A stretch of DNA of 64,000 nt from contig NC_092801.1 in the NCBI RefSeq assembly GCF_918797505.1, positions 21,452,116 to 21,516,115 on the forward strand. The letters run 5' to 3'. Under the pieces are notes generated by a model that saw only the letters and a program-made list of their open reading frames with translations, did no database searches and was not told the origin of the DNA. A program made the translations under genes and the position numbers. Shown here piece by piece: positions 483 to 34,769 of the stretch. Source of the DNA: Bemisia tabaci (lineage: Eukaryota > Arthropoda > Insecta > Hemiptera > Aleyrodidae). Positions within the stretch are counted from its first letter, which is position 1, and every line of letters begins with the position of its first letter.

Positions 483-1303
483 GTATTCACATTCACGCTC
501 GCTACCAAAGAGAACTAACGAGCTTGACACCCAATACTTCTCACTTAGACCCATAGGCTGTTTGGTAGAATACGTCCCAGTGACGAAATAAACCTCAGAA
601 TTAGCGGTTTTAGCCTAAAATCTCATATCCGACCTCTCTAATGAATCGATCCACTGTGCGCCACAGAAATTAAGGCATGGATCATTGATATACCTAGAGC
701 ACAAACAACCCAGCTGAATAGCATCCCAGAAATCAAGGGCTAATTTTTAACCTTCATGTCTCGGGAAATACGCGATTTTGATAAGGAATGAGCATAAAAG
801 GCGAAAAGCTAAGATTTTCCTTCAGTTTCGCGACATACTACATACCCGCACACCGTAGTTCGAAAAGTTGCGCGCTCATTTTATCGAAATTATCAAGTCT
901 AAGGTCTAAACTTAGCCTATAACCGTGTTGTATGAAAATTAAGAAACAAAATGCTACCCACGACGGAGTAACTAGGACGACGGTAAAGTCCACGCCAATT
1001 AAATTTACGCACTTCCAGATTGCGACGAAAGATCGTCTGCTGTCACTTTTACACGTAAAGAAAATGAAAGAATCAAGATGGCTGTTCTTGTATCGCAGTC
1101 TAAAGTGCGTAAATGTTTTGCGTTGTATGCATTTGTATTAATGATCACCGCTCCGCAATACGTATGGTAGCCAGTAGCGCGCATCTACATGGTGAGGGCA
1201 TAAGCGAGGCTAAGACGCCTTCAATTTTGGAATATGCAAAATGGGCACCCGCGGAACAAGAATAGTTGCATCCTTCGGTTGAGACCCATTTCGCGCAAAA
1301 ATT

Positions 1304-1391
1304 TCCCGGGAAGGCCCCTCGGACCCCCCTCTCTGCTGGGGGCCCGCGCCTTAAGACTGGTACCAGGGCCCGAGATGGGATGTAGCGGGCA
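1304..1391 (-). mobile_element. End fragment of hAT-like family P
   Basis: On the minus strand this reads CATCCCATCTCGGGCCCTGG, then a short spacer and a GC-rich stretch containing GTCCGAGGGG. It is the same left terminus as the elements at 21116 and 24262. Only the first 90 or so bases are present, followed by unrelated sequence. Confidence 0.65.
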
Positions 1392-1435
1392 TGCATATTG
1401 CATCCGCTTTTGATTTGAAATCAAACAGTGGTGAG

Positions 1436-3348: not shown

Positions 3349-3560
3349 CAAGACCAATCCACACAGGTCAGTCATTGCGCATCTTCTTGAGAGCCACTTC
3401 CCCGCCCGGCCCTAACTCGGCTGCACTCAATACTACGTCACACTAGTCACAATGGGTGCTCCCATAAGAAATACATTGCAAGCACTCAATACTACGTCAC
3501 TGGGCAGTAGAGTACCAAAACTCGTCCACGGGAATGACTGACCTGTGTGGATTGGTCTTG
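3349..3560 (+). mobile_element. Small hAT-type MITE (family G)
   Basis: A 27-bp terminal inverted repeat begins CAAGACCAATCCACACAGG and returns as CCTGTGTGGATTGGTCTTG. Flanks AGCTATGA (3341-3348) and AGCTAAGA (3561-3568) form an 8-bp TSD with one mismatch. It interrupts the AGCTAAGATTTTCC block of the surrounding interspersed repeat; an unbroken copy of that block lies near 807-821. Inside, ACTCAATACTACGTCAC occurs twice. Confidence 0.85.
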
Positions 3561-4315
3561 AGCTAAGATTTCCCTTCAGTTTCCCGTCATACTACATACT
3601 CACGCCGGAGTTCGAATAGTTGCCCGCTTCATATCCGCATTCAAACGATGCGATCAAAATACCTATACATTCAGTAACGCAGTAATTTTAAAGAGTCGAA
3701 AAATTAACCTTTTCCTCCATTTCACGTAATCCTACACTTACATATACACACTCTGGAGTGAAAAATTCCCTCATTCTGGAAAAATGAGTTTATATAATGA
3801 GAACTGTGAGAGTCAAAAAACTTAAAAAAACAGTGCCTTTTACTGTTTTTTCTTATTCCTTACTTGTTGGGTACAACAAACCAAAAGACGTTCATACATC
3901 GACAAATTTCTGTGTGCAGTCACAGCTTCCCTCACACAGCTTGCAAATACCCGACGCTATCCCGAGATGCTTTTCTAAAGTTGGTGCAATGAAAGGTGTT
4001 AGGACCCTTGCTTGGTGAGGATTCAGTAAGGAAAATTAGCTCGCAATTGCTGCTGAGCAACTGCCCAATGACTGGAGGAGGAAAGGTTGGAACATTACCT
4101 AAACATTGAATTGATGCTGCACTTTAAATTGACAGCTTGCATAGGCAGCTATAATCGCTTCGATACGTTGACTTCAAACAACACCAATTTGTTTTTGTTT
4201 CTGAAGACCTGTCGATAAGCATAATTTAGGAGATTTATCACCTGCATGACATCACAAAAGGAAGGTCGTTACAGGGACTTCTATTAGAGTTTGCTCATTG
4301 TGTACTAAAGCATAG

Positions 4316-5659: not shown

Positions 5660-6890
5660 AAGTAACACTGATGCCGTTCTACTCTACTATATCCTCTATT
5701 TTCTCAGGGGCAAAGTTACGTGGTGAGTTTGATGTCAACAAGTCAATCGGATAAACTGAGAGATCAGAAAGATTTTGTCATTGTATTGTTACTTGCCAAA
5801 TGAATTCAAATTTTACATTGATTATTTTAAATTACTACAATTACAATAAATTATACTTACAGAAGTATTCTTGAAATAAATGTGCTCAAGGTGGGGAGAT
5901 CATCAAAATCCGCAAACGTGACTGAATTGAACCTGTTGCATCTGATGGGTAGGTAAATAAAACGTGCTAACCTGCAGTCTGATAAGACTTAACCTCAAAA
6001 TATTTCTTTACACAATGTTTTAAAGAAAGACAGAACGAGTCACTCTAGTTGCTAAACGGCTTAAAAAATAAAGGCGTAATCGGGATAAGTAAAGAAATCA
6101 GGAAACTACTGAATTACGAAATCCAAGAATGGAAACTATAGACGGGTGGATGAGAACATCAACACTTCACGCAGTTCTGCATTGGAATTGTGATACAGGG
6201 AAAGAATACGTATTCAAAGAATTGTATCAAATGTTACAACGGTACAGCGGAGAAAAGATGTTCATTTCAAGAGCTGAGCACTGAACTTTCCGGCGGAATT
6301 TTCGGCATCACCACTTCGGAAAAATGAAAAAAAATAATGTTATGATGAATATGAATCATTTCTGTTGATAATGATAAGGATAAACTGATAACGCTAGATC
6401 ACAATGCTGAGGCCGAGAGAGGGGCAAGGAGGGCGGGTCATGTGACTGTCGACGCGGGCACCCCTGGCGGTAAGTCACCCAAGCTCTCTTTACCGCCAAA
6501 AACGTCAAAAAGTGCATTAGCCAGTCACAACGTTTGGCGCGAATCTAGGGATTTGTTCGAATATGCGCAACTACCTTTGCTTGCCCGCTGCCGCTGGAGT
6601 ACCTATCTAGACAGGGCGAGAATAGCCATATGTGTGTGCCAGTCTTTGTTTGGAATTTTGATTCACTTTTAAACGCGTCCTAGAATGTCTATCGAATTAC
6701 CGTTAGGTGAGGATTAATATCATATCATAGGATGGCCGGACTGGAGAGGGGGTAAAAAGAACGCTGCATATGTAGAAACGCAGCTAATATACTAAGTTTC
6801 ATGACTGAAGAATTTCTCGCGGAATAAAACGGCAGATCTAACAATATAAAATTTTAGTCTTGACTCATTTTAGTCTGGAAACATCCAGTC
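5660..6890. other. Unassigned AT-rich DNA
   Basis: No gene or repeat recognised. A short GC-richer stretch at 6415-6600 has an open frame of 76 codons without recognisable motifs or a convincing start; it is not called. Confidence 0.5.
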
Positions 6891-9279: not shown

Positions 9280-12200
9280 TAAAAATGGGATGTATTTCTT
9301 CTAATAACCAGGATAAAAGGGAGGATTATTACCTATACAGGATAGTCCTAGAAAAACGGGATGTACCTATATTAATAAACCGGGATAACAGGAAGGATAT
9401 CGATCATTGTGTATCGATATTCGATACATCGTTTGTTCTAAAGCAGTATTGACTGGGATAAAACGGGATTTCTTCATAATAACCGGGATAAAAGGGAGGA
9501 ATTTTACATCCTATACGGGAGAGTCATGGATGAACGGGATGTACCTATATTAATAAACCGGGATAACAGGAAGGATATCGATCTTTGTGTATCGATCTTC
9601 GATACATCGTTTGTTCTAAAGCAGTATTGACTGGGATAAAACGGGATTTCTTCATAATAACCGGGATAAAAGGGAGGAATTTTACCTATACAGGATAGTC
9701 ATGGATGAACGGGATGTACCTATATTAATAAACCGGGATAACAGGAAGGATATCGATCTTTGTGTATCGATCTTCGATACATCGTTTGTTCTAAAGCTGT
9801 ATTGACTGGGATAAAACGGGATTTCTTCATAATAACCGGGATAAAAGGGAGGAATTTTACCTATACAGGATAGTCATGGATGAACGGGATGTACCTATAT
9901 TAATAAACCGGGATAACAGGAAGGATATCGATCTTTGTGTATCGATCTTCGATACATCGTTTGTTCTAAAGCAGTATTGACTGGGATAAAACGGGATTTC
10001 TTCATAATAACCGGGATAAAAGGGAGGAATTTTACCTATACAGGATAGTCATGGATGAACGGGATGTACCTATATTAATAAACCGGGATAACAGGAAGGA
10101 TATCGATCTTTGTGTATCGATATTCGATACATCGTTTGTTCTAAAGCAGTATTGACTGGGATAAAACGGGATTTCTTCATAATAACCGGGATAAAAGGGA
10201 GGAATTTTACCTATACAGGATAGTCATGGATGAACGGGATGTACCTATATTAATAAACCGGGATAACAGGAAGGATATCGATCTTTGTGTATCGATCTTC
10301 GATACATCGTTTGTTCTAAAGCAGTATTGACTGGGATAAAACGGGATTTCTTCATAATAACCGGGATAAAAGGGAGGAATTTTACCTATACAGGATAGTC
10401 ATGGATGAACGGGATGTACCTATATTAATAAACCGGGATAACAGGAAGGATATCGATCTTTGTGTATCGATATTCGATACATCGTTTGTTCTAAAGCTGT
10501 ATTGACTGGGATAAAACGGGATTTCTTCATAATAACCGTGATAAAAGGGAGGAATTTTACCTATACAGGATAGTCATGGATGAACGGGATGTACCTATAT
10601 TAATAAACCGGGATAACAGGAAGGATATCGATCTTTGTGTATCGATCTTCGATACATCGTTTGTTCTAAAGCAGTATTGACTGGGATAAAACGGGATTTC
10701 TTCATAATAACCGGGATAAAAGGGAGGAATTTTACCTATACAGGATAGTCATGGATGAACGGGATGTACCTATATTAATAAACCGGGATAACAGGAAGGA
10801 TATCGATCTTTGTGTATCGATCTTCGATACATCGTTTGTTCTAAAGCAGTATTGACTGGGATAAAACGGGATTTCTTCATAATAACCGGGATAAAAGGGA
10901 GGAATTTTACCTATACAGGATAGTCATGGATGAACGGGATGTACCTATATTAATAAACCGGGATAACAGGAAGGATATCGATCTTTGTGTATCGATATTC
11001 GATACATCGTTTGTTCTAAAGCTGTATTGACTGGGATAAAACGGGATTTCTTCATAATAACCGGGATAAAAGGGAGGAATTTTACCTATACAGGATAGTC
11101 ATGGATGAACGGGATGTACCTATATTAATAAACCGGGATAACAGGAAGGATATCGATCTTTGTGTATCGATCTTCGATACATCGTTTGTTCTAAAGCAGT
11201 ATTGACTGGGATAAAACGGGATTTCTTCATAATAACCGGGATAAAAGGGAGGAATTTTACCTATACAGGATAGTCATGGATGAACGGGATGTACCTATAT
11301 TAATAAACCGGGATAACAGGAAGGATATCGATCTTTGTGTATCGATATTCGATACATCGTTTGTTCTAAAGCAGTATTGACTGGGATAAAACGGGATTTC
11401 TTCATAATAACCGGGATAAAAGGGAGGAATTTTACCTATACAGGATAGTCATGGATGAACGGGATGTACCTATATTAATAAACCGGGATAACAGGAAGGA
11501 TATCGATCTTTGTGTATCGATATTCGATACATCGTTTGTTCTAAAGCAGTATTGACTGGGATAAAACGGGATTTCTTCATAATAACCGGGATAAAAGGGA
11601 GGAATTTTACCTATACAGGATAGTCATGGATGAACGGGATGTACCTATATTAATAAACCGGGATAACAGGAAGGATATCGATCTTTGTGTATCGATCTTC
11701 GATACATCGTTTGTTCTAAAGCAGTATTGACTGGGATAAAACGGGATTTCTTCATAATAACCGGGATAAAAGGGAGGAATTTTACCTATACAGGATAGTC
11801 ATGGATGAACGGGATGTACCTATATTAATAAACCGGGATAACAGGAAGGATATCGATCTTTGTGTATCGATCTTCGATACATCGTTTGTTCTAAAGCAGT
11901 ATTGACTGGGATAAAACGGGATTTCTTCATAATAACCGGGATAAAAGGGAGGAATTTTACCTATACAGGATAGTCATGGATGAACGGGATGTACCTATAT
12001 TAATAAACCGGGATAACAGGAAGGATATCGATCTTTGTGTATCGATCTTCGATACATCGTTTGTTCTAAAGCAGTATTGACTGGGATAAAACGGGATTTC
12101 TTCATAATAACCGGGATAAAAGGGAGGAATTTTACCTATACAGGATAGTCATGGATGAACGGGATGTACCTATATTAATAAACCGGGATAACAGGAAGGA

Positions 12201-14115
12201 TATCGATCTTTGTGTATCGATCTTCGATACATCGTTTGTTCTAAAGCAGTATTGACTGGGATAAAACGGGATTTCTTCATAATAACCGGGATAAAAGGGA
12301 GGAATTTTACCTATACAGGATAGTCATGGATGAACGGGATGTACCTATATTAATAAACCGGGATAACAGGAAGGATATCGATCTTTGTGTATCGATCTTC
12401 GATACATCGTTTGTTCTAAAGCTGTATTGACTGGGATAAAACGGGATTTCTTCATAATAACCGGGATAAAAGGGAGGAATTTTACCTATACAGGATAGTC
12501 ATGGATGAACGGGATGTACCTATATTAATAAACCGGGATAACAGGAAGGATATCGATCTTTGTGTATCGATCTTCGATACATCGTTTGTTCTAAAGCTGT
12601 ATTGACTGGGATAAAACGGGATTTCTTCATAATAACCGTGATAAAAGGGAGGAATTTTACCTATACAGGATAGTCATGGATGAACGGGATGTACCTATAT
12701 TAATAAACCGGGATAACAGGAAGGATATCGATCTTTGTGTATCGATCTTCGATACATCGTTTGTTCTAAAGCAGTATTGACTGGGATAAAACGGGATTTC
12801 TTCATAATAACCGGGATAAAAGGGAGGAATTTTACCTATACAGGATAGTCATGGATGAACGGGATGTACCTATATTAATAAACCGGGATAACAGGAAGGA
12901 TATCGATCTTTGTGTATCGATATTCGATACATCGTTTGTTCTAAAGCTGTATTGACTGGGATAAAACGGGATTTCTTCATAATAACCGGGATAAAAGGGA
13001 GGAATTTTACCTATACAGGATAGTCATGGATGAACGGGATGTACCTATATTAATAAACCGGGATAACAGGAAGGATATCGATCTTTGTGTATCGATCTTC
13101 GATACATCGTTTGTTCTAAAGCAGTATTGACTGGGATAAAACGGGATTTCTTCATAATAACCGGGATAAAAGGGAGGAATTTTACCTATACAGGATAGTC
13201 ATGGATGAACGGGATGTACCTATATTAAGAAACCGGGAAAACAGGAAGGATATCGATCTTTGTGTATCGATCTTCGATACATCGTTTGTTCTAAAGCTGT
13301 ATTGACTGGGATAAAACGGGATTTCTTCATAATAACCGGGATAAAAGGGAGGAATTTTACCTATACAGGATAGTCATGGATGAACGGGATGTACCTATAT
13401 TAATAAACCGGGATAACAGGAAGGATATCGATCTTTGTGTATCGATCTTCGATACATCGTTTGTTCTAAAGCAGTATTGACTGGGATAAAACGGGATTTC
13501 TTCATAATAACCGGGATAAAAGGGAGGAATTTTACCTATACAGGATAGTCATGGATGAACGGGATGTACCTATATTAATAAACCGGGATAACAGGAAGGA
13601 TATCGATCTTTGTGTATCGATCTTCGATACATCGTTTGTTTCTAAAGCAGTAATGACTGGGATAAAACGGGATTTCTTCATAATAACCGGGATAAAAGGG
13701 AGGAATTTTACCTATACAGGATAGTCATCGATAGAACGGGATGTACCTATATTAATAAACCGGGATAACAGGAAGGATATCGATCTTTGTGTATCGATCT
13801 TCGATACATCGTTTTTTCTAAAGCAGTAATGACTGGTATAAAACGGGATTTCTTCATAGTGACCGGGATAAAGTGGAGGAATTTTACCTATACAGGATAG
13901 TCATGGATAAAACGGGATGTACCTATATTAAGAAACCGGGAAAACAGGAAGGATATCGATCTTTGTGTATCGATCTTCGATACATCGTTTTTTTCTAAAG
14001 CAGTAATGACTGGGATAAAACCGGATTTCTTCAGAGTGACCGGGATAATATGCAGTAATTTTACCTATACAGTATAGTCATTTATAATAGTGGATGTAAC
14101 TATGTTAAGGAACCG
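9280..14115 (+). repeat. 175-bp minisatellite, about 27 units
   Basis: GACTGGGATAAAACGGGATT recurs at 9451, 9629, 9804, 9979 and then exactly every 175 bases to 13479 (22 units without an indel), then at 13655, 13831 and 14008. The first unit (9280-9450) and the last three are clearly diverged; central units differ at only a few sites. Recurrent variants are CAGTATT/CTGTATT and GTATCGATCTTCG/GTATCGATATTCG. The variant ACCGTGATAAAAGG occurs twice, 2100 bp apart. Diverged edges with a homogenised core is the pattern left by unequal exchange. No coding frame. Confidence 0.97.
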
Positions 14116-14120
14116 GGATA

Positions 14121-14405
14121 AAACACATCAAATGCATCATGAAACATAGCAAACACATCAAACACATCATGAAACACGTAAAACGCAATATAAACATCAT
14201 GATACACCTAAAACACATCAAACACAACAAACACATCATGAAACACAATCAAACACATTAAACACAACAAATACATCATGAAACACAATCAAACACATCA
14301 AACACAACAAACACATCATGAAACACAATCAAACACATCAAACACAACAAACACATCATGAAACACAATCAAACACATCAAACACACCATGAAACACCAT
14401 GAAAC
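14121..14405 (+). repeat. 40-bp CA-rich tandem repeat
   Basis: Units built from AAACACATCA, AACACAACAA, ACACATCATG and AAACACAATC repeat every 40 bp from about 14205 to 14385, with shortened versions before. G occurs almost only in the CATG word, giving strong strand asymmetry. It sits between the 175-bp array and the helicase frame. Confidence 0.9.
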
Positions 14406-14550: not shown

Positions 14551-16470
14551 AATTTTTTATATTATGTATGGAAAGCGGAAGAAAAAAAATGGAAGAAAAG
14601 AATAAGACAGACAAAACTTGTGGTTAGATTGTATTCAATATCTCCGAAAGATTGTGAACGGTTTTACTTGAAAATACTTCTGAGAAAAGTTAAAGGCGCT
14701 TTAAATTTTTCACATTTAAAAACAGTCAATAATATAGAATTGGAAACATTCAGAGAAGCAGCATATGCGAAAGGATATGGTATGAATAAAGAAGATGTTG
14801 ACGAAATAATGAACGAAGCTGTCTCTGTCATGATGCCGTCAGGATTGAGATCATTCTTTGTTTACCTTCTTTTAACTTCAGAAAACATCAATGGAAAAAG
14901 ACTTTGGGAAAAATTCAAGAATTATCTATACGAAGATAGTAATGAAAGTAATGCAATTTCAGAAATAGAACAAAAGTTAAACGGTGAAGAGAAAAGCTTA
15001 AAGGATTTCGGAATAAATATTGACAAAATTTCACAAAATTATTTCGATGACGGAATAGATAACACAGATCATGGCAGAATAGCTCATGGAATGATAGATA
15101 ATTTGAATGAAGAGCAAAGAGAAATTTTTACAGAAATTTCAAAAAGTATAATGAAAACCGACAATACAAACAGGTTCTTCATCGACGGGCCAGGGGGAAC
15201 AGGAAAAACATTCTTGTACAGAGCACTCTATCACCACTTAAAACATAATAATAAAAAAGTATTATGTATAGCATGGACTGGAATAGCTGCAATTTTACTT
15301 CCTGGTGGAAAAACAGCTCACAGGGTTTTTAAATTGCCACTTCAGATGACATCCGAAAACGACATTAAACCGGCAAAACTTACAACAGCATTAAAACAAA
15401 TATTAACAGAAGTTGATTTTATAATATGGGATGAGGCTTCAATGATATTGTCAACAGCTTTTCAAATAGTGAACGTAACCTTGCAAGATTTAATGAGAAA
15501 CAATGATCCATTCGGAGGAAAAGCAGTTTGCCTAGGCGGAGATTTCAGACAATTATTGCCAGTAGTAAAGAAAGGAAGCAGAAATCAAATAGTCAAATCA
15601 GCTTTAATAAGCTCTCCTTTATGGAAACATTTCAAAATCTTCCACTTGAAAAAAAATATGAGAGCAAACAACGAAGAATTCAGTGAATGGCTGCTACAAA
15701 TCGGAAATGGAAAGAAAGAAATAGTTGAATTCCCATCAGAAATGATATGTAATGAAAACATTGTTGATAGCATTTTTAAAGAATATAACGAAGAAACATT
15801 AAAAACATCAATACTTCTTGCATCCAGAAATTGTGAAGTTGACAGATTGAATGAAGAAGTACTCTCAAAAATGGAAGGAGAAACAATTGTGAGTGAAGGA
15901 TTCAGTTGGGCAACTGCAGTGGACGGAGACCTGACAGACCAAGACGAGTTAACTCTGAGATATCAACCAGAATACTTAGCTTCACTGAACCCTTCAGGAA
16001 TGCCAAGTCAAAATTTGAAGTTAAAAGAAGGAGCTGTGGTTATGTTACTACGCAACATTTGTATCGAGGATGGATTGTGCAATGGGACAAGATTAATTGT
16101 CTTAAAAATAAATAAATACATTTTGCATTGCTCAATTTTAACCGGAGAAAAAAAAGGAAAAATAGTTTCACTACCAAAAATTACACTTAACACAAAAGAA
16201 CAAACGAACCTACCTTTTGTTTTGAATAGGAAACAATTCCCCGTTAGATTAGCTTTTGCTATGACTATTAGTAAAAGCCAAGGGCAATCGTTTGACAGAG
16301 TGGGAATTTTTATAGATAAAGAAAGACCAATGTTCGCTCACGGGCAACTGTATGTAGCATTGTCTAGATGTAGGACTAAAGAGGGTTTAAAAATAAAAAT
16401 CATTAATTTTGATGACGACAAAAATAAAAACACAGCAATGAACATTGTTTATCAAGAAGTTCTGCATTAA
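14551..16470 (+). CDS. Helitron helicase domain (5'-truncated RepHel)
   Basis: An open frame of 639 residues encodes the SF1B, Pif1-like helicase half of a Helitron RepHel protein, which unwinds DNA during rolling-circle transposition. Counting from the GTG at 14620: Walker A GPGGTGKT at 190-197, IIWDEAS (Walker B) at 268-274, GGDFRQ at 306-311, KSQGQS at 552-557 and HGQLYVALSRC at 574-584. Before the helicase, VRLYSISPKDCERFYLKILL is the family's linker motif. The frame extends upstream of 14620 through YYVWKAEKKWKKR, which also fits Helitron proteins, to a TGA at 14548. There is no in-frame ATG before residue 54 and no HUH/Rep domain upstream, where the 40-bp repeats begin. The helicase half has no stops or frameshifts, so it is young or still used. 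Without Rep it should not be able to cut DNA itself. Confidence 0.9.
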   Translation, partial: NFLYYVWKAEEKKWKKRIRQTKLVVRLYSISPKDCERFYLKILLRKVKGALNFSHLKTVNNIELETFREAAYAKGYGMNKEDVDEIMNEAVSVMMPSGLRSFFVYLLLTSENINGKRLWEKFKNYLYEDSNESNAISEIEQKLNGEEKSLKDFGINIDKISQNYFDDGIDNTDHGRIAHGMIDNLNEEQREIFTEISKSIMKTDNTNRFFIDGPGGTGKTFLYRALYHHLKHNNKKVLCIAWTGIAAILLPGGKTAHRVFKLPLQMTSENDIKPAKLTTALKQILTEVDFIIWDEASMILSTAFQIVNVTLQDLMRNNDPFGGKAVCLGGDFRQLLPVVKKGSRNQIVKSALISSPLWKHFKIFHLKKNMRANNEEFSEWLLQIGNGKKEIVEFPSEMICNENIVDSIFKEYNEETLKTSILLASRNCEVDRLNEEVLSKMEGETIVSEGFSWATAVDGDLTDQDELTLRYQPEYLASLNPSGMPSQNLKLKEGAVVMLLRNICIEDGLCNGTRLIVLKINKYILHCSILTGEKKGKIVSLPKITLNTKEQTNLPFVLNRKQFPVRLAFAMTISKSQGQSFDRVGIFIDKERPMFAHGQLYVALSRCRTKEGLKIKIINFDDDKNKNTAMNIVYQEVLH

Positions 16471-20145: not shown

Positions 20146-20406
20146 CTGCCGTGCTAAGGAAGAACGCCGTATGAGCATTCGAGAGTTGCCAAATCTCCCA
20201 TAATACAACATGTATTTTTGACGACATTCATGCACATTTTTCTTTGAATTTTTGAAATTTGCAGATATTTAAAATTAAATTGCGTACAAAATTGTCTGAA
20301 AATTTTGGAAAAAAATATTTACAATGCTCCTAGTAAATTCGGTTTTTATCGAAGGGAACTTGGCAACGTCTGAAGGTCCATACGGCGTTTTTCTTTAGCA
20401 GGGCAG
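20146..20406 (+). mobile_element. MITE family A, copy 2
   Basis: CTGCCGTGCTAAGGAAGAAC at the left and its inverted form at the right. TSD AGTA at 20142-20145 and 20407-20410. It is the best available empty-site reference for the insertion in copy 3 (31164): its ACGACATTCATGCACATTT and GCAGATATTTAAAATTAAAT are contiguous. Confidence 0.9.
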
Positions 20407-20851
20407 AGTACCTGTATACGGGAGAGTATTGTCATCTTTGTGCCACTCTCTGATTGGTTCATCAGTTTTACGTTATCATATGGAGCTCCTAAGTTGGCCC
20501 AACGTAAACAAACCGGACCCAGAGGGACACGCATATCGGCTGAGAAATGAATGACAATCACACTCAAAGCTTAATTTTCGGCAAAATTATTCATCAAAGG
20601 TCGATCCAAACTCAATTCAGTAGTTGGATGTAAACGAAATTCTATCACGCCCAAAGTCACGTCTAGGACTATGTAGAACTTTTCCGCCATCTTGTTTGTT
20701 TACATTGGGCCAAACTAGGAGCGGAGGGGCTGGGGTTTGTTTACCTTGGTCCAACATTGGGGCTCCATGATAGCCGACCAATCAGAGAGCGGCATACTTT
20801 TTCTGTGGTAAAAGGATTGAGATGGCAATACTCTCCCGTATACAGGTACTC
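20407..20851 (+). mobile_element. Inverted-repeat element O, abutting MITE A2
   Basis: Left AGTACCTGTATACGGGAGAG and right CTCTCCCGTATACAGGTACT are exact inverted repeats of about 26 bp. The inverted similarity continues with TGATTGGTTCATCA/TGATAGCCGACCAATCA and TTGGCCCAACGTAAACAAA/TTTGTTTACATTGGGCCAA. Length about 445 bp. It begins exactly at the end of A2, so its TSD cannot be separated from A2's. Confidence 0.85.
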
Positions 20852-21115
20852 TTAAGGGAACAGTTTCGTTGGTCGTGCCACGATACTCCGCATGACGTCA
20901 TCGATTCTTCTAGGGGCATGCGGCATGACGAGCGTACCCCCCGTTTGTGATCCCGAACTCGGAGTATACACGCTAGACAGTGTAGGGCGTGAATACCACA
21001 TAAATGTGACTGGAGATTCCTTCACAGTTTTATCTCATTTGCCTTTACAGACCGTTCATCTCCTACGTAAGCCATTTTGGTCAGTGGCGGATCCAGGGGG
21101 GGGGGGGGGCACAGT

Positions 21116-21843
21116 CAGGCCCGCCACATCCCATCTCGGGCCCTGGTACTAGTTTTAAAGTCCGGGCCCCAAGCACGGAGGGGGCGGGGGTCCGAGGGGC
21201 ATCCCCCGAGAAATTTTAGAATTTATACGACAAATCGGACGCATTTTGAAGCTTCCTTAAAGAATTTTTCCATCAATTTCTGCGGAATAATTATGTTTTT
21301 TTTTTCCTACTTTCAGCACAAAATACTAGCGAATTATTGGATTCAAAACATCGGGAACATTTTTATTTTAATTTTTTTTTTTTTATGGGGGGGGGGCATA
21401 TGATACTATTTTCAGTTCTAAGAGGGCCAGGCCCCCCTGGCTTCCCCCTTTGTTTGTCTATGGCAAGGAGGTTGAGCCATGAGCCATTGAAGTCGAGGAT
21501 GCCCTGACTGGAGACTCTTAGTATCTGACGACGGAAGCAAATGAATCGCAGTTACTAAAAATATCCCACTGTACTGGAAATCTTGAAAATAGATAACAAT
21601 TTTCCTGGAAGTATACTTCATTGAAAATTTAAGAAGAATTCTACAGTGCCCCAGCGAGTTTCTGAAAATCTGTTCACCTTTTGCGAAATTTTTAGGGTAA
21701 ATTTTTCACTTTTTCTTACGAAACAAGGGTTGCATGTGAATTCGTAGTGGTTTTTCACGGGTAACACGGGCCTGTACGGCCCTGGTACCGGGGCCCGGGC
21801 CCCGGTACCAAGGACCTATTATCCCACCCTTGTGGCGGGCCTA
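21116..21843 (+). mobile_element. hAT-like element P1
   Basis: Terminal inverted repeat CAGGCCCGCCACA / TTGTGGCGGGCCTA (last base changed from G). Subterminal GGGCCCTGGTACTAG and CCCGGTACCAAGGACC are also inverted. It includes AATTATGTTTTTTTTTTCC, poly-G near 21385 and GCCATGAGCCATTGAAGTCG. 728 bp, no coding frame, about 85-90% alike to P2 by eye. Confidence 0.85.
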
Positions 21844-22280
21844 CCTTCATGCACGCTGGGCTTGTCGATTTCCTGTGACATTTTTGCAGTGGTGAATGCA
21901 TAGCTGAAGTGCGCTCCAGCTAGAATTGTATTTAGCAAAATGGTGGTTTTTCTACGAGGATTAAAAATAAACGAGCGGTACGGAATATAACAAAAGAATA
22001 TGAACTACGCAAAACGATAATCCGGGTATCGGAACTTGGCTGATTTGAAAACGCCTTCAAATGCGGCGTGATACCTCACGCATTCCGGAGAGTTCAAATA
22101 GTTGTATCATTGCGCCGTAAGAATGTGACGGAAGATTTAAATGGAAATAGCCCCCATGCACGCTGGGCGTGTCGATTTCCTTTGACATTTATGCAGTGGT
22201 GAATGCATAGCTGAAGTGCGCTCCAGCTAGAATTGTATTTAGCAAATGGGTGGTTTTTATAGGAGTATTATAATGAAACA

Positions 22281-23170
22281 TATATATACATATATATAAC
22301 ATACATATATTATAATGAAAAATAAGGTTGCGGGAATGGGCGTTCCACTCGTTGATGGGCAGACCCTTTATACTCTATGCTTTGCCGATGACCAGATCGT
22401 TGTAGCTCAAGATGAGGAAGATGCAGATTACATGACGCGGAAGTTGGTCGAAGAATATCGGAAATGGGGCATGGACGTTAGTGTGTCCAAGACAGAGAAG
22501 CTGGTCATGGGAGCAGCGCATCAACGGCAAAGCATAGAGCTTGAGGATGGACGGCGCATCGAAGAGTGTGACGAGTATAAGTATCTCGGTGTTTGGCTCG
22601 ATCAGGATGGAAGGATGGATAGAGCAATTAAGGACAGGATCATCCAGGGCAGGAGAGCCATCGCGATGCTGAACGGGGTGCTCTGGGATCAAAGCATCTC
22701 AAAGGCAAACAAGCACCGGATATATGATGCCATCGTTAAAAGTATCTTGCTCTATGGTAGTGAAGTGTGGCCTTTGACGAAAAGAACGCAAGAAATGTTG
22801 AGGGCAACTGAAATGGATTTTTGGCGGCGATCTGCCGGCATTTCGAGACGGGACCGTGTCCGTAATGAGAGAATTCGCCAGGTGATGAAGGTTGAGAAAG
22901 ATATCGTGCACGACGTCATGTCCAGGCAGTTATGCTGGTATGGACATGTGCAAAGAATGTCGGAGGAGAGGTTGCCCAAACAAGTTTTGGATTGGGTACC
23001 ACCTGGGAAGAGGCGACGGGGACGTCCCGTAAAGGGTTGGCGGCAGGGCGTTGACGAAGAGATGTTGCGGTGTCAGTTGCCCGATAACCTCTGGGAAGAC
23101 AGGCATATGTGGCGTTTGGGTGTCGTAGAACGCCAGAGTGCGTTATAAAGCGACTCTATATATATATATA
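22281..23170 (+). mobile_element. 5'-truncated non-LTR retrotransposon
   Basis: Flanked by a 12-bp TSD TATAATGAAACA (22269-22280, 23171-23182). Satellite monomer 5 shows the unbroken site (ATTAGAATGAAACAAGTGG near 24061). The 3' tail is a (TA)n run. The 5' junction has about 34 bp of TA-rich filler with a second ATTATAATGAAA, as after a template slip. A second copy's 3' end lies at 34554-34727, minus strand. Confidence 0.92.
22315..23148 (+). pseudogene. Reverse transcriptase C-terminal part
   Basis: 277 codons, open to the stop. FADD (residues 23-26) is the reverse transcriptase active-site box, followed by the SKTEKLVM and YKYLGVWLD motifs. Beyond it are SILLYGSEVWPL and the C-terminal segment LCWYGHVQRM...PGKRRRGRP. 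This tail is common in RTE-like and related insect non-LTR elements; the exact clade is not decided. The endonuclease and the N-terminal half of the reverse transcriptase are missing, so it cannot be active. The ATG at 22315 comes from the duplicated target-like sequence, not from the ancestral protein. Confidence 0.9.
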
Positions 23171-24261
23171 TATAATGAAACAAGTGGTTAGAAATGGAAA
23201 CAAAAGAATATGAAATATGCAAAACGATAATCCGGATGTCGGAACTTGGCTGATTTGAAAACGCCTTTAAATGCGGCGTAATACCTCGCGCATTCCGGAG
23301 AGATCAAATAGTTGTATCATTGCGCCTTAGAAATGCGACGGAAGATTACAATTGAAATAGCCTTCATGCACGCTGGCCTTTTCGATTTCCGTTAACATTT
23401 TTGTAGTCTTAAATGCGCCTAAGTGCGCTCCAGCTAGAATATTATTTAGCAAATGGGTGGTTTTTCTACGAGGATTAAAAATAAGCGAGTGGCACGGAAT
23501 ATAACACAAATATATGAACTCTGCAAAACGATAATCCGGGTATCGGAGCTTGCGGCGTGAAGCCTCACGCATTCCGGAGAGTTCAAATAGTTGTATCATT
23601 GCGCCTAAGAATGTGACGGAAGATTTAAATGGAAATAGCCTCCATACACGCTGGGCGTGTCGATTTCCTCTGACACTTTTACAGTGGTGAATGCATAGCT
23701 GAAGTGCGCTCCAGCTAGAATTGTATTTAGCAAGATGGTGGTTTTTCTACGAGGATTAAAAATAAACGAGTGGCACGGAATATAACAAAAGAATATGAAC
23801 TACGCAAAACGATAATCCGGGTATCGGAACTTGGCTGATTTGAAAACGCCTTCAAATGCGGCGTGATACCTCCCGCATTCCGCAGAGTTCAAATAGTTGT
23901 ATCATTGCGTCGTAAGAATGTGACGGAAGATTTAAATGGAAAAAGCATCCATGCACGCTGGGCGTGTCGATTTCCTCTGACATTTTTACAGTGGTGAATG
24001 CATAGCTGAAGTGCGCTCCAGCTAGAATTGTATTTAGCAAATGGGTGGTTTTTATAGGAGTATTAGAATGAAACAAGTGGTTAGAAATGGAAACAAAAGA
24101 ATATGAACTATGCAAAACGATAATCCGGGTGTCGGAACTTGGCTGTTTTGAAAACGCCTTCAAATGCGGCGTGATACCTCACGCATTCCGGAGAGTTAAA
24201 ATAGTTGTATCATTGCGCCGTATGAATGTAACGGAAGATTTAAATGGAAATAGCCTTCATG

Positions 24262-24977
24262 CAGGCTCGCCACATCCCATCTCGGCCCCGGGTACCAGTT
24301 TTAAGGTCCGGGCCCCAGGCACGGAGGGGGGGGGGGTGTCCGAAGGTCATCCCCCGAGAAATTCTAGATATTATACGACTAATCGGATGCATTTTGAAGC
24401 TTCCATAAAGAATTTTTCCATCAATTTCAGCGGAATAATTATGTTTTTTTTCCCTACTTTCAGCACAAAATACTTGCGAATTGTTGAATTGAAAACATCT
24501 GGAACATTTTTATTTTTTTTTTGGGGGGGGGGGTGTCATATGATACCATTTTCAGTTCTAATAGGGCCAGGCCCCCTGGACTCCCCCTTCGTTTGTCTAT
24601 GGCAAGGGAGTTGAGCCATGAGCCATTGAAGTCGAGGATGCCCAGACTGGAGACTCTTAGCATCTGACGACGGAAGAAAATGAAACGCAGTTACTAAAAA
24701 TATCCCTCTGTACTGAAAATCTTGAGAATAGATCGAAATTTTCCAGAAAGTATACTTCTTTGAAAATTTAAGAAGAATTCTACAGTGCCCCAGCGTGTTT
24801 CTGAAAATCTATTCACCTTTTGCGAAGTTTTTAGGGTGAATTTTTCACTTTTTCTCACGAAACAAGGGTTGCATGTGAATTCGTAGTGGTTTTTCACGTG
24901 GTAACACGGGCCCCCGCCGGGGCTCGGGCCCCGGTACCAGGGACTCAGTATCCCCCCCCCCCCTTGTGGCGGGCCTG
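24262..24977 (+). mobile_element. hAT-like element P2
   Basis: Ends CAGGCTCGCCACATCCC and CCCTTGTGGCGGGCCTG. Internal order is the same as P1 (poly-G, GGCCAGGCCCCCTGGA, GTCGAGGATGCCCAGACTGG, GAAACAAGGGTTGCATGTG). 716 bp. The left flank CCTTCATG equals P1's right flank, and the right flank GGCACAGT equals P1's left flank. Confidence 0.85.
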
Positions 24978-24985
24978 GGCACAGT

Positions 24986-26440
24986 GGCATGCCCTCCATG
25001 CTCCCCATCGGATCAAAAAAAGGGGGAAAGGAGGATAAAAGGAGGAAAGAGGGAGAAAGAGGGAAAGAAAAAAAGTGCTCCTAAAAACTTACTGAAATGG
25101 TGTCAAGACAGAACTTCAGAACTATTTAACCAAGCTCACTAAACCAATGGTTACTCAATAATGAAGAAAGAAATAGGCCATATACGAAAATAAAATTTCT
25201 CTAAAAGATGTATTATTCGTCGTTTTTCAACTTTCAAATAATGCACAAATTGTATGCTAAAACTGCTTAAAATTCAATCTGAGAGGGCATCTTTTCGAAA
25301 ATGTACGGGGGAGACCCCCGGAACACAGACTCAACATCAGAAAATTAATGCTCCTCCCCCCCACTTCAAATCACTTTGGATTCGCCACTGATTTTGGTCG
25401 ACTTTTTTACCCCCTTATTGCGTCCCCCTATAAGCCACCCAAAAGACAACCTGTCACCCCCCCTCCCATTTGTGTTTCGTACAAGCCTGCCCAACCCCCT
25501 TCCCCTTTGCGACCGCGTAAGCTCGAACCTCCTTTCCCTATGTGGCTTACGTAATGCTTGAACGACCCTTTAAATAATATCCAAGAATTAAAAACGACTG
25601 AACTTTTAAATGTCCTTTCATTTATTTCATTAAACCGTAGTTGGACCGCAACTTTTACTTTCTCCCACGTGGAAACCAAAATGTAACATAACTGCACCTA
25701 ATTAATTTATTAGAATTATAAAAAAAAGAAAACAACTTTCTTTCTTTCCACTGTCAATCAGATCTTTGCGAAAGTTTTAAGGATGAATTCACCCGATTGC
25801 TCACCGAAATTATATCCACGAAGTCCAAAATTGCGTGACCGTTTTGTTCTCCTGTTTCAGGTTGATGATATGATTTTGGTCGGTCCTTGATAGATGTCTT
25901 CGACTTGAAAAATGAGCCACTCTTACAAAGTCCAGAAAGATCGGAATAATTTCATGTTAACTTAATCTCACTCAGCCCAATTAGAATGTTAGGTCCGTTG
26001 AGCTTTTTCTAAGAGCTTTTTGTCGGTACCTAATCATATTTGTCTTACCTATTTTATAGCTCCTGCATTTTTATATTCGACATTATTTCTTATATTCCAA
26101 ATTAATAATGAGCTAGATGCTTAGAAAATTAGGGTGAGGGAGATTCAGTCACTAATCAAGCTTATTCGATGAAGAGACAGCATAGAGTGATTTGATAAGT
26201 AAGAGATAGATGCTTTATTTATTATGTCAGTCAGATAAAATGTGTAATTTTTACTTTATAAAAATAATAATAACTTACCTCTTGATTTGATTCCATCTTT
26301 AAGAGCGTTGACATTTTTTCAGTGCATGAGGAGAATCTAGCCGTTTTACTTCTTGTTAGTTAATTTAGTAGTATTTCGTGACGTTGAATATATTTTCATA
26401 GTATTATCTGCATTGAAATCATTCATAGTTTATTTGAATT
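24986..26440. other. Unassigned DNA with a polypurine tract
   Basis: 25013-25075 is nearly all purine on the + strand (A and G runs), and 25340-25510 is pyrimidine-rich. From 25560 onward the DNA is AT-rich without recognised repeats; it may include the promoter and 5' region of the gene at 26463, but no TATA or initiator was convincing. Confidence 0.5.
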
Positions 26441-34524: not shown

Positions 34525-34769
34525 GAGCATTCTACCACAGGTATTCCTAGAGTATATATACCTATACGAGTCGCTTTTACAGCGCTCTTTGGCGCTTTAC
34601 GACGCCTAATCGCCACAAAGCTCGGTCTTCCCACAGGTCATCAGGGAGTTGACACTCCCTCATCTCGTTTAACACCCCCTGTCGCCAACCTCTCACTGGG
34701 CGTCCCCTACGTCTCCTCCCAGGAGGGATTCCTAGAGTTTACTCTAGGAATACCTGCGGTAGAATGCTC
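34525..34769. mobile_element. Palindromic element split by a retrotransposon
   Basis: Left arm GAGCATTCTACCACAGG plus TATTCCTAGAGT (34525-34553) and right arm ACTCTAGGAATACCTGCGG plus TAGAATGCTC (34741-34769) are near-perfect complements. The retrotransposon at 34554-34727 lies in the few-base loop between them. Confidence 0.85.
34554..34727 (-). mobile_element. 3' fragment of the same non-LTR retrotransposon
   Basis: On the minus strand it encodes GRRRRGRPVRGW and LWEDRALWRLGVVKRQRAL followed by a stop, matching the C-terminus of the copy at 22315 (LWEDRHMWRLGVVERQSAL). It ends in a TATA-rich tail. TSD ATTCCTAGAGT, 11 bp, at 34543-34553 and 34728-34738. Heavily 5'-truncated, about 174 bp. 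Confidence 0.92.

Follow-up and report, generated by a model that had tools for sequence, protein, structure and literature searches.

We analysed a 64,000-nucleotide stretch of the Bemisia tabaci genome (contig NC_092801.1 of assembly GCF_918797505.1, positions 21,452,116 to 21,516,115 of the forward strand; hereafter the window), in which two copies of a hAT-like element, termed P, lie on either side of a satellite array. This P–satellite–P block, with P1 as its left arm and P2 as its right arm, is enclosed by another hAT-like element, termed Q. The features of the locus, in window coordinates, are:

21074..21081, no strand: ATTTTGGT, target duplication of Q, left copy
21082..25390, + strand: outer hAT-like element Q, interrupted by the composite block; ends CAGTGGCGGATCC / GGATTCGCCACTG
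21108..21115, no strand: GGCACAGT, outer duplication of the composite, left copy; its GG stands at the end of a G run
21116..21843, + strand: left arm P1, 728 bp; outer end CAGGCCCGCCAC, inner end ...GTGGCGGGCCTA
21844..21851, no strand: CCTTCATG at the inner end of P1, doubling as the start of monomer 1
21844..22150, + strand: satellite monomer 1, type A
22151..23360, + strand: satellite monomer 2, type B, 308 bp without the retrotransposon piece
22281..23170, + strand: non-LTR (long terminal repeat) retrotransposon piece, 890 bp, splitting monomer 2; reverse transcriptase domain PF00078
23361..23638, + strand: satellite monomer 3, type A, 278 bp, with internal deletions
23639..23946, + strand: satellite monomer 4, type A
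23947..24253, + strand: satellite monomer 5, type B
24254..24261, no strand: CCTTCATG at the inner end of P2
24262..24977, + strand: right arm P2, 716 bp; inner end CAGGCTCGCCAC, outer end GTGGCGGGCCTG
24978..24985, no strand: GGCACAGT, outer duplication of the composite, right copy
25391..25398, no strand: ATTTTGGT, target duplication of Q, right copy

The order at the locus is GGCACAGT–P1–CCTTCATG–five satellite monomers–CCTTCATG–P2–GGCACAGT, and both 8-mers are exact. An earlier sequence-only reading had noted that each 8-mer occurs once outside and once inside the block, never on both sides of one element, and that a whole number of monomers separates the two elements. Both observations are correct: GGCACAGT lies at 21108-21115 and 24978-24985, CCTTCATG at 21844-21851 and 24254-24261, and the insert amounts to five monomers once the 890-bp retrotransposon piece is removed. 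Because the GG of the left GGCACAGT ends a G run, most of the weight of that copy rests on CACAGT.

Element P is about 720 bp long and has 12-bp inverted ends. P1 and P2 share the same orientation and align over 708 bases, 644 of them identical and 64 mismatched, with 28 further gap columns; their outer ends match each other over 12 bases, and each inner end carries one change. A CAG start of the terminal inverted repeats is typical of hAT elements, and CAG...CTG ends are found both on the outer ends in the window (CAGGCCCGCCAC / GTGGCGGGCCTG) and at most of the loci described below. The only open reading frame of at least 120 residues that touches P in the window (24087-24614) crosses from the satellite into P2 and has no protein relatives at an E-value of 1. 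LTR retrotransposons have 4-6 bp duplications, TG...CA ends and gag-pol; the 8-bp duplications, the CAG...CTG ends and the lack of a gag-pol frame between the window arms do not fit this identity. Pattern searches with the satellite and P in viral and genome contig collections, a distant DNA search in plasmids and phages, and transfer RNA and Rfam scans returned nothing useful.

The satellite repeat is about 307 bp long and occurs in two types. Its array order, A B A A B, was read from the alignment, with typing by script covering only the four undivided monomers, and the monomers measure 307, 308, 278, 308 and 307 bp when the retrotransposon piece is left out. That piece is flanked by a 12-bp duplication, TATAATGAAACA, at 22269-22280 and 23171-23182. 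An NCBIfam scan of it yielded nothing useful; a related tail (73.6%) lies at 34553-34726. Joining monomer 5 via CCTTCATG to monomer 1 produces a normal monomer boundary.

The composite is inserted within an earlier hAT-like element, Q, which has its own 8-bp duplication, ATTTTGGT. The two sides of Q, when joined, form a continuous element of about 439 bp that contains a single GGCACAGT. The presence of Q around the block goes beyond what the sequence-only reading held, as does the block's membership in a structure of many copies, which emerged from a survey of the genome.

In this survey, a search of the same genome (609,955,014 bases in 151 contigs) with P2 as the query gave 1623 first-look candidates, of which 40 were scored, the window copy included; there were four short side matches besides. 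As the scored loci are those nearest to the P2 query, the class shares given here are not genome-wide. The same satellite lies on one side of P at 29 of the 39 non-self loci, and the other ten are solo copies (L007, L008, L011, L013, L015, L021, L030, L049, L052 and L053). All ten solo copies have an 8-bp target duplication of varying sequence, as hAT elements do; nine are exact, and that of L008 agrees at 7 of 8 bases. At the satellite-bearing loci, the 8-mer at the arm is exactly CCTTCATG in 24 of 29 cases, has one mismatch in four and is lost in one. By type, CCTTCATG is present at all 12 left-arm loci; the 17 right-arm loci comprise 12 exact, four one-mismatch and one lost.

Four of the 29 loci are complete arm–satellite–arm units with outer duplications. 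L012 contains four monomers, one of them shortened, and L027, L046 and L048 contain two each, forming compact copies of about 2 kb. In L003, L005 and L010 the left arm is cut short or internally deleted and the outer duplication is exact. One arm is lost at six of the 29, namely the right arm in L002, L004, L017, L026 and L047, and the left arm in L009.

Both outer arm ends thus lie between matching 8-mers at seven loci besides the window, and these 8-mers are all different. Six are exact (L027, GTTGTAAG; L046, TAAGTGTT; L048, CTTCTACT; L003, GATATCCC; L005, TGGATAAA; L010, GTGATCGT), and that of L012 agrees at 7 of 8 bases. The occurrence of the unit at other loci with other outer 8-bp duplications is the outcome that the sequence-only reading had named as favouring en-bloc transposition, and a single target duplication around both arms, recurring at several loci, is what characterizes a composite. 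With the window included, seven of eight loci are exact and one agrees at 7 of 8, whereas swapped pairings of left and right 8-mers agree within one mismatch in 0 of 56 cases. Random pairs of 8-mers from the window agree exactly at a rate of 8.75 per 100,000 (~7-9) and within one mismatch at 7.6 per 10,000. No close duplicates were found among the one-sided 300-bp flanks of the 40 loci (matches were 73-79% over 55-222 bp), and the loci therefore look like separate insertions.

The arms carry marks that depend on their place in the unit. All 17 right arms have T at position 6 of the left end. Of 12 left arms, 11 have C there and the remaining one has lost that end; among the ten solo copies, nine have C. 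The inner end of P2 in the window, CAGGCTCGCCAC, has this T like the other right arms examined, and so do the right arms of L046 and L048, while C is found in the left arms of L003, L005, L010, L012 and L027. Most left arms have a short run of C near the right end, and most right arms a longer one. In the cargo, L029 and L054 (oriented 1300-1512 in each), whose flanks are unrelated, share the same deletion junction in the monomer adjoining P2, in an alignment that ends 4 bp outside P2. The arm-end states and the cargo deletion look inherited with movement. Separately, L015 is the sole solo copy with T at position 6; it may be a right arm that moved by itself, or it may have arisen by recombination.

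At the six loci without one arm, the outer 8-mer adjoins the free end of the satellite with an excision-like scar. In L004 the first base, next to the lost arm, is complemented (A to T); in L002 both junction bases are complemented and one further base is lost; and L017 and L009 each show one lost base and one substitution. The scans behind these four scars also gave chance one-mismatch hits away from the array ends. Excision by hAT elements leaves hairpins on the flanking DNA, and for this reason the complemented junction bases fit hAT excision; Kat1, a hAT transposase, reportedly produces hairpin-capped breaks.

From the observed recurrence, outer duplications, shared marks in arm ends and cargo, and scars, we conclude that the block is very probably one copy of a mobile hAT composite that moved en bloc (macrotransposition), with LTR-like direct arms and a satellite cargo. 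We infer the transposase, the macrotransposition step and the formation of the first unit as follows. Two full-length, non-coding P copies in direct orientation would serve as long terminal arms around the satellite array. A hAT transposase supplied in trans would bring together the P1 left end and the P2 right end, excise the whole block and insert it elsewhere, creating a new outer 8-bp target duplication; in the window the target would have been GGCACAGT inside Q. The inner CCTTCATG 8-mers would be inherited from the event that first placed P in the satellite. Either arm could later leave alone, and the satellite array would then stay behind at its new location, marked by a small scar. Possible founding events are a circle crossover, two insertions in one array, or amplification.

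This conclusion supports the sequence-only reading in part. That reading had preferred a single crossover joining a resident P to a P carried by a satellite circle, and had offered en-bloc transposition after two same-site insertions as the alternative. The recurrence of the unit points to the alternative: en-bloc movement is retained, and two same-site insertions are not needed at this locus because arms and cargo look inherited as a unit. We also rejected an early inference of our own, that P1 and P2 were already unlike when brought together. It came from comparing 64 differences in 708 positions between the arms with 13 in 307 between monomers 1 and 4 (Fisher p 0.007); the same comparison gives p 0.39 against monomers 2 and 5, and 0.02 against both monomer pairs. 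In the family comparison, each window arm has a branch to itself, and the two differ from the common sequence by 5.6% and 4.7%; a prior difference between P1 and P2 is therefore not needed. Nor does an unusually long identical stretch between P1 and P2 mark a crossover point, the longest, of 42 bases, being that expected by chance (P 0.52).

Several observations weigh against en-bloc movement. The 39 non-self loci are those that scored best against the P2 query, so that the sample is skewed towards P2-like copies. One mismatch was tolerated in scanning for outer 8-mers, and the scans produced chance hits elsewhere as well. At 14 of the 29 satellite-bearing loci the far end is unresolved (L006, L014, L016, L018, L019, L022, L023, L024, L025, L029, L050, L051, L054 and L055); ten of these were extended or inspected further and showed no outer 8-mer beside the arm end. 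Two loci are irregular. In L020 (oriented 930-1060) the outer duplication is present twice, around CAG, and in L028 (extended 3540-3600 and 6200-6240) the right copy of the duplication matches at 7 of 8 bases and is shifted by a CAG that lies between it and the arm end. These triplets may reflect abortive re-insertion. The left arm of L028, which has T at position 6, is also the sole exception to the arm-end pattern. For L026 and L047, with three and seven bases lost, respectively, the scar was read by eye. No transposase was found, and no genome search for a transposase with P ends was made.

The divergence data contribute further difficulties. The arm tree, built from 33 copies, is nearly a star and does not show the division of left and right arms into two clades, which was rejected (7 and 8 changes, with shuffles as low in 15 of 500 and 20 of 500 cases); it is the terminal base and the length of the C run that separate left from right arms. 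The order of the array is only weakly kept (61 of 2000 shuffles were as extreme). Between loci, the monomers diverge by 8.0-10.7% versus 4.2-5.0% for the arms, a contrast suggesting that the unit started to spread with an array of already diverse monomers, the alternative being later exchange. Finally, a circle would account for the arm-end differences as well.

Recurrence by itself does not settle the matter, because a circle could integrate at many resident P copies. Repeated integration of this kind, in which circles of one P plus satellite recombine with, or target, resident solo P at many loci, would resemble the translocatable units of bacterial IS26 and would make solo P copies landing pads for the satellite across the genome. 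The swapped 8-mers follow from it, and so do the observed solo-like left ends of left arms (C at position 6) and the single state (T) shared by the left ends of right arms; moreover, the available sections of one report describe circle formation by hobo and Hermes and the ability of Hermes circles to reintegrate (PMC2803484). However, it requires a solo insertion and a recombination at each of 29 of the 39 loci. It is also at odds with the lack of any P–satellite–P–satellite–P array in the stretches read, but as 14 far ends are unresolved and much flanking DNA is unread, missing multimers count little. In the stretches read, L018 (extended 896-2023) is unlike the other loci, with inverted P and satellite pieces about 1.1 kb from a direct unit.

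Derivation from one circle lineage would further leave the parts contributed by the circle, the left of the right arms and the right of the left arms, unusually alike. We compared 15 left arms, 20 right arms and 10 solo copies over 467 of 803 columns. Among right arms, the pairwise divergence is highest in the left third (6.8%), lowest in the middle third (3.1%) and 4.1% in the right third; the left third in solo copies diverges by 4.1%, and the right third by 3.7% in left arms and 3.6% in solo copies. The prediction of unusually alike parts fails on the right-arm side and is neutral on the left-arm side. The test is a moderate one: bootstrap ranges of the left/right ratio overlap (1.36-2.09 for right arms, 0.75-1.69 for solo copies), and a relaxed inner end could also raise the divergence of the left ends of right arms. 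The number of loci, the divergence test and the known cases of hAT macrotransposition together lead us to favour en-bloc movement strongly and to regard repeated circle integration as disfavoured and improbable.

We consider it very unlikely that a P–satellite–P array elsewhere served as the template for mending a broken resident P, through gene conversion or break-induced copying. Such copying would yield the same swapped 8-mers, and in the arm tree the closest relative of each L012 arm is the other (support 99/97), so that arms may exchange sequence; yet a separate event would be needed per locus, and the arm-end states and cargo deletion that look inherited with movement argue against it. 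Slimmer still are the chances of a single crossover confined to the window locus, in which a satellite circle carrying one P would have recombined with one resident P: it fits the window 8-mers exactly, but is contradicted by the many loci that have this unit and its shared arm-end states within different outer duplications. An assembly error joining repeats is hardly credible, for although everything at the locus is repetitive, the unit stands at independent places between matching outer 8-mers, including the compact copies L027, L046 and L048.

The window contains several other mobile or repetitive elements. A P-relative left-end fragment, ~81-83% identical, lies at 1298..1393 on the - strand. 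A second tandem array (9294-14121; 175-bp unit, 27.5 copies, 98% matches) stops some 500 bp short of a Helitron-type PIF1 helicase frame (14620-16470). Over 87% and 77% of its own length, this frame matches two B. tabaci proteins with 100% identity; residues 1-340 of a B. tabaci protein in which a Helitron-like domain is joined to this helicase (P0002) have no tblastn match in the window. Just left of Q, inverted 33-bp ends around GAGTACCTGTATACGGGAGAGTAT lie at 20405-20852, which is probably another palindromic mobile element.

How satellites move outside their home arrays is an open question, often answered by circles or by unknown recombination. The apparent joint movement of two P copies and the satellite they enclose would explain the scattering of satellite pieces. 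The composite would provide a concrete vehicle with a readable record, consisting of arms, outer target duplications and arrays left after arm loss, so that satellite dispersal becomes traceable locus by locus and searchable in other insects. If repeated circle integration were instead true, a eukaryotic hAT element would be behaving like the translocatable units of IS26; to our knowledge, a circle-integration mechanism of that kind is known in no animal. In the open-access literature searched, we found no report of a satellite-carrying hAT composite, and the available portions of two papers on Bemisia transposons (PMC10357772, PMC9017028) do not mention one.

A similar general design is that of bacterial composite transposons of the Tn9 type, in which two direct insertion sequence copies mobilise the DNA between them. 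Unlike these, the P arms code for no transposase, and the cargo is a satellite and not a resistance gene. Among hAT elements, the outer ends of Ac/Ds macrotransposons move the DNA between them, up to ~100 kb according to parts of one report (PMC3260210), and parts of another describe the excision of a 28-kb Ac/Ds macrotransposon that left a modified 8-bp footprint (PMC9910405). The likeness lies in nearby hAT elements whose outer ends mobilise the interior, with 8-bp duplications (PMC3260210, PMC9910405); the difference, as far as those parts go, is that they describe maize alleles with larger cargo, whereas the P composites form a dispersed family in which one design recurs and the cargo is a satellite. 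Composite insertions formed by alternative transposition and re-replication of Ac also place hAT ends around duplicated flanks with an 8-bp duplication, but in the sections available their copied flanks come from one donor locus and are joined by end joining or repeat recombination (PMC4270019). The inner junctions described here are, in contrast, the same 8-mer at 24 of 29 loci.

For satellites, a parallel is TCAST of Tribolium, which occurs in gene-rich DNA and is partly linked to transposon-like elements with target duplications; in the available account, however, it forms part of mariner-type inverted repeats with a 3-bp duplication (PMC3411249), and here the satellite is cargo between two whole elements. 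KolobokP, from a superfamily other than hAT, has the same architecture in the sections available: long terminal direct repeats, each with its own terminal inverted repeats, surround an internal region, solo repeats exist, and single repeats are lost with small scars (PMC9587614). It differs, in the same sections, in its 4-bp TTAA duplication, compared with 8 bp of varying sequence here, and in its arm–interior multimers, which are common there and were not seen in the stretches read here (PMC9587614). Its interior codes for a transposase and a His-Me endonuclease (PMC9587614), unlike the tandem repeats found here; the window interior consists of satellite monomers and the reverse transcriptase piece, and the interiors of other loci were compared only with P, the satellite and that piece. 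En-bloc movement of the P composite would show the arm–cargo–arm plan of KolobokP in the hAT superfamily.

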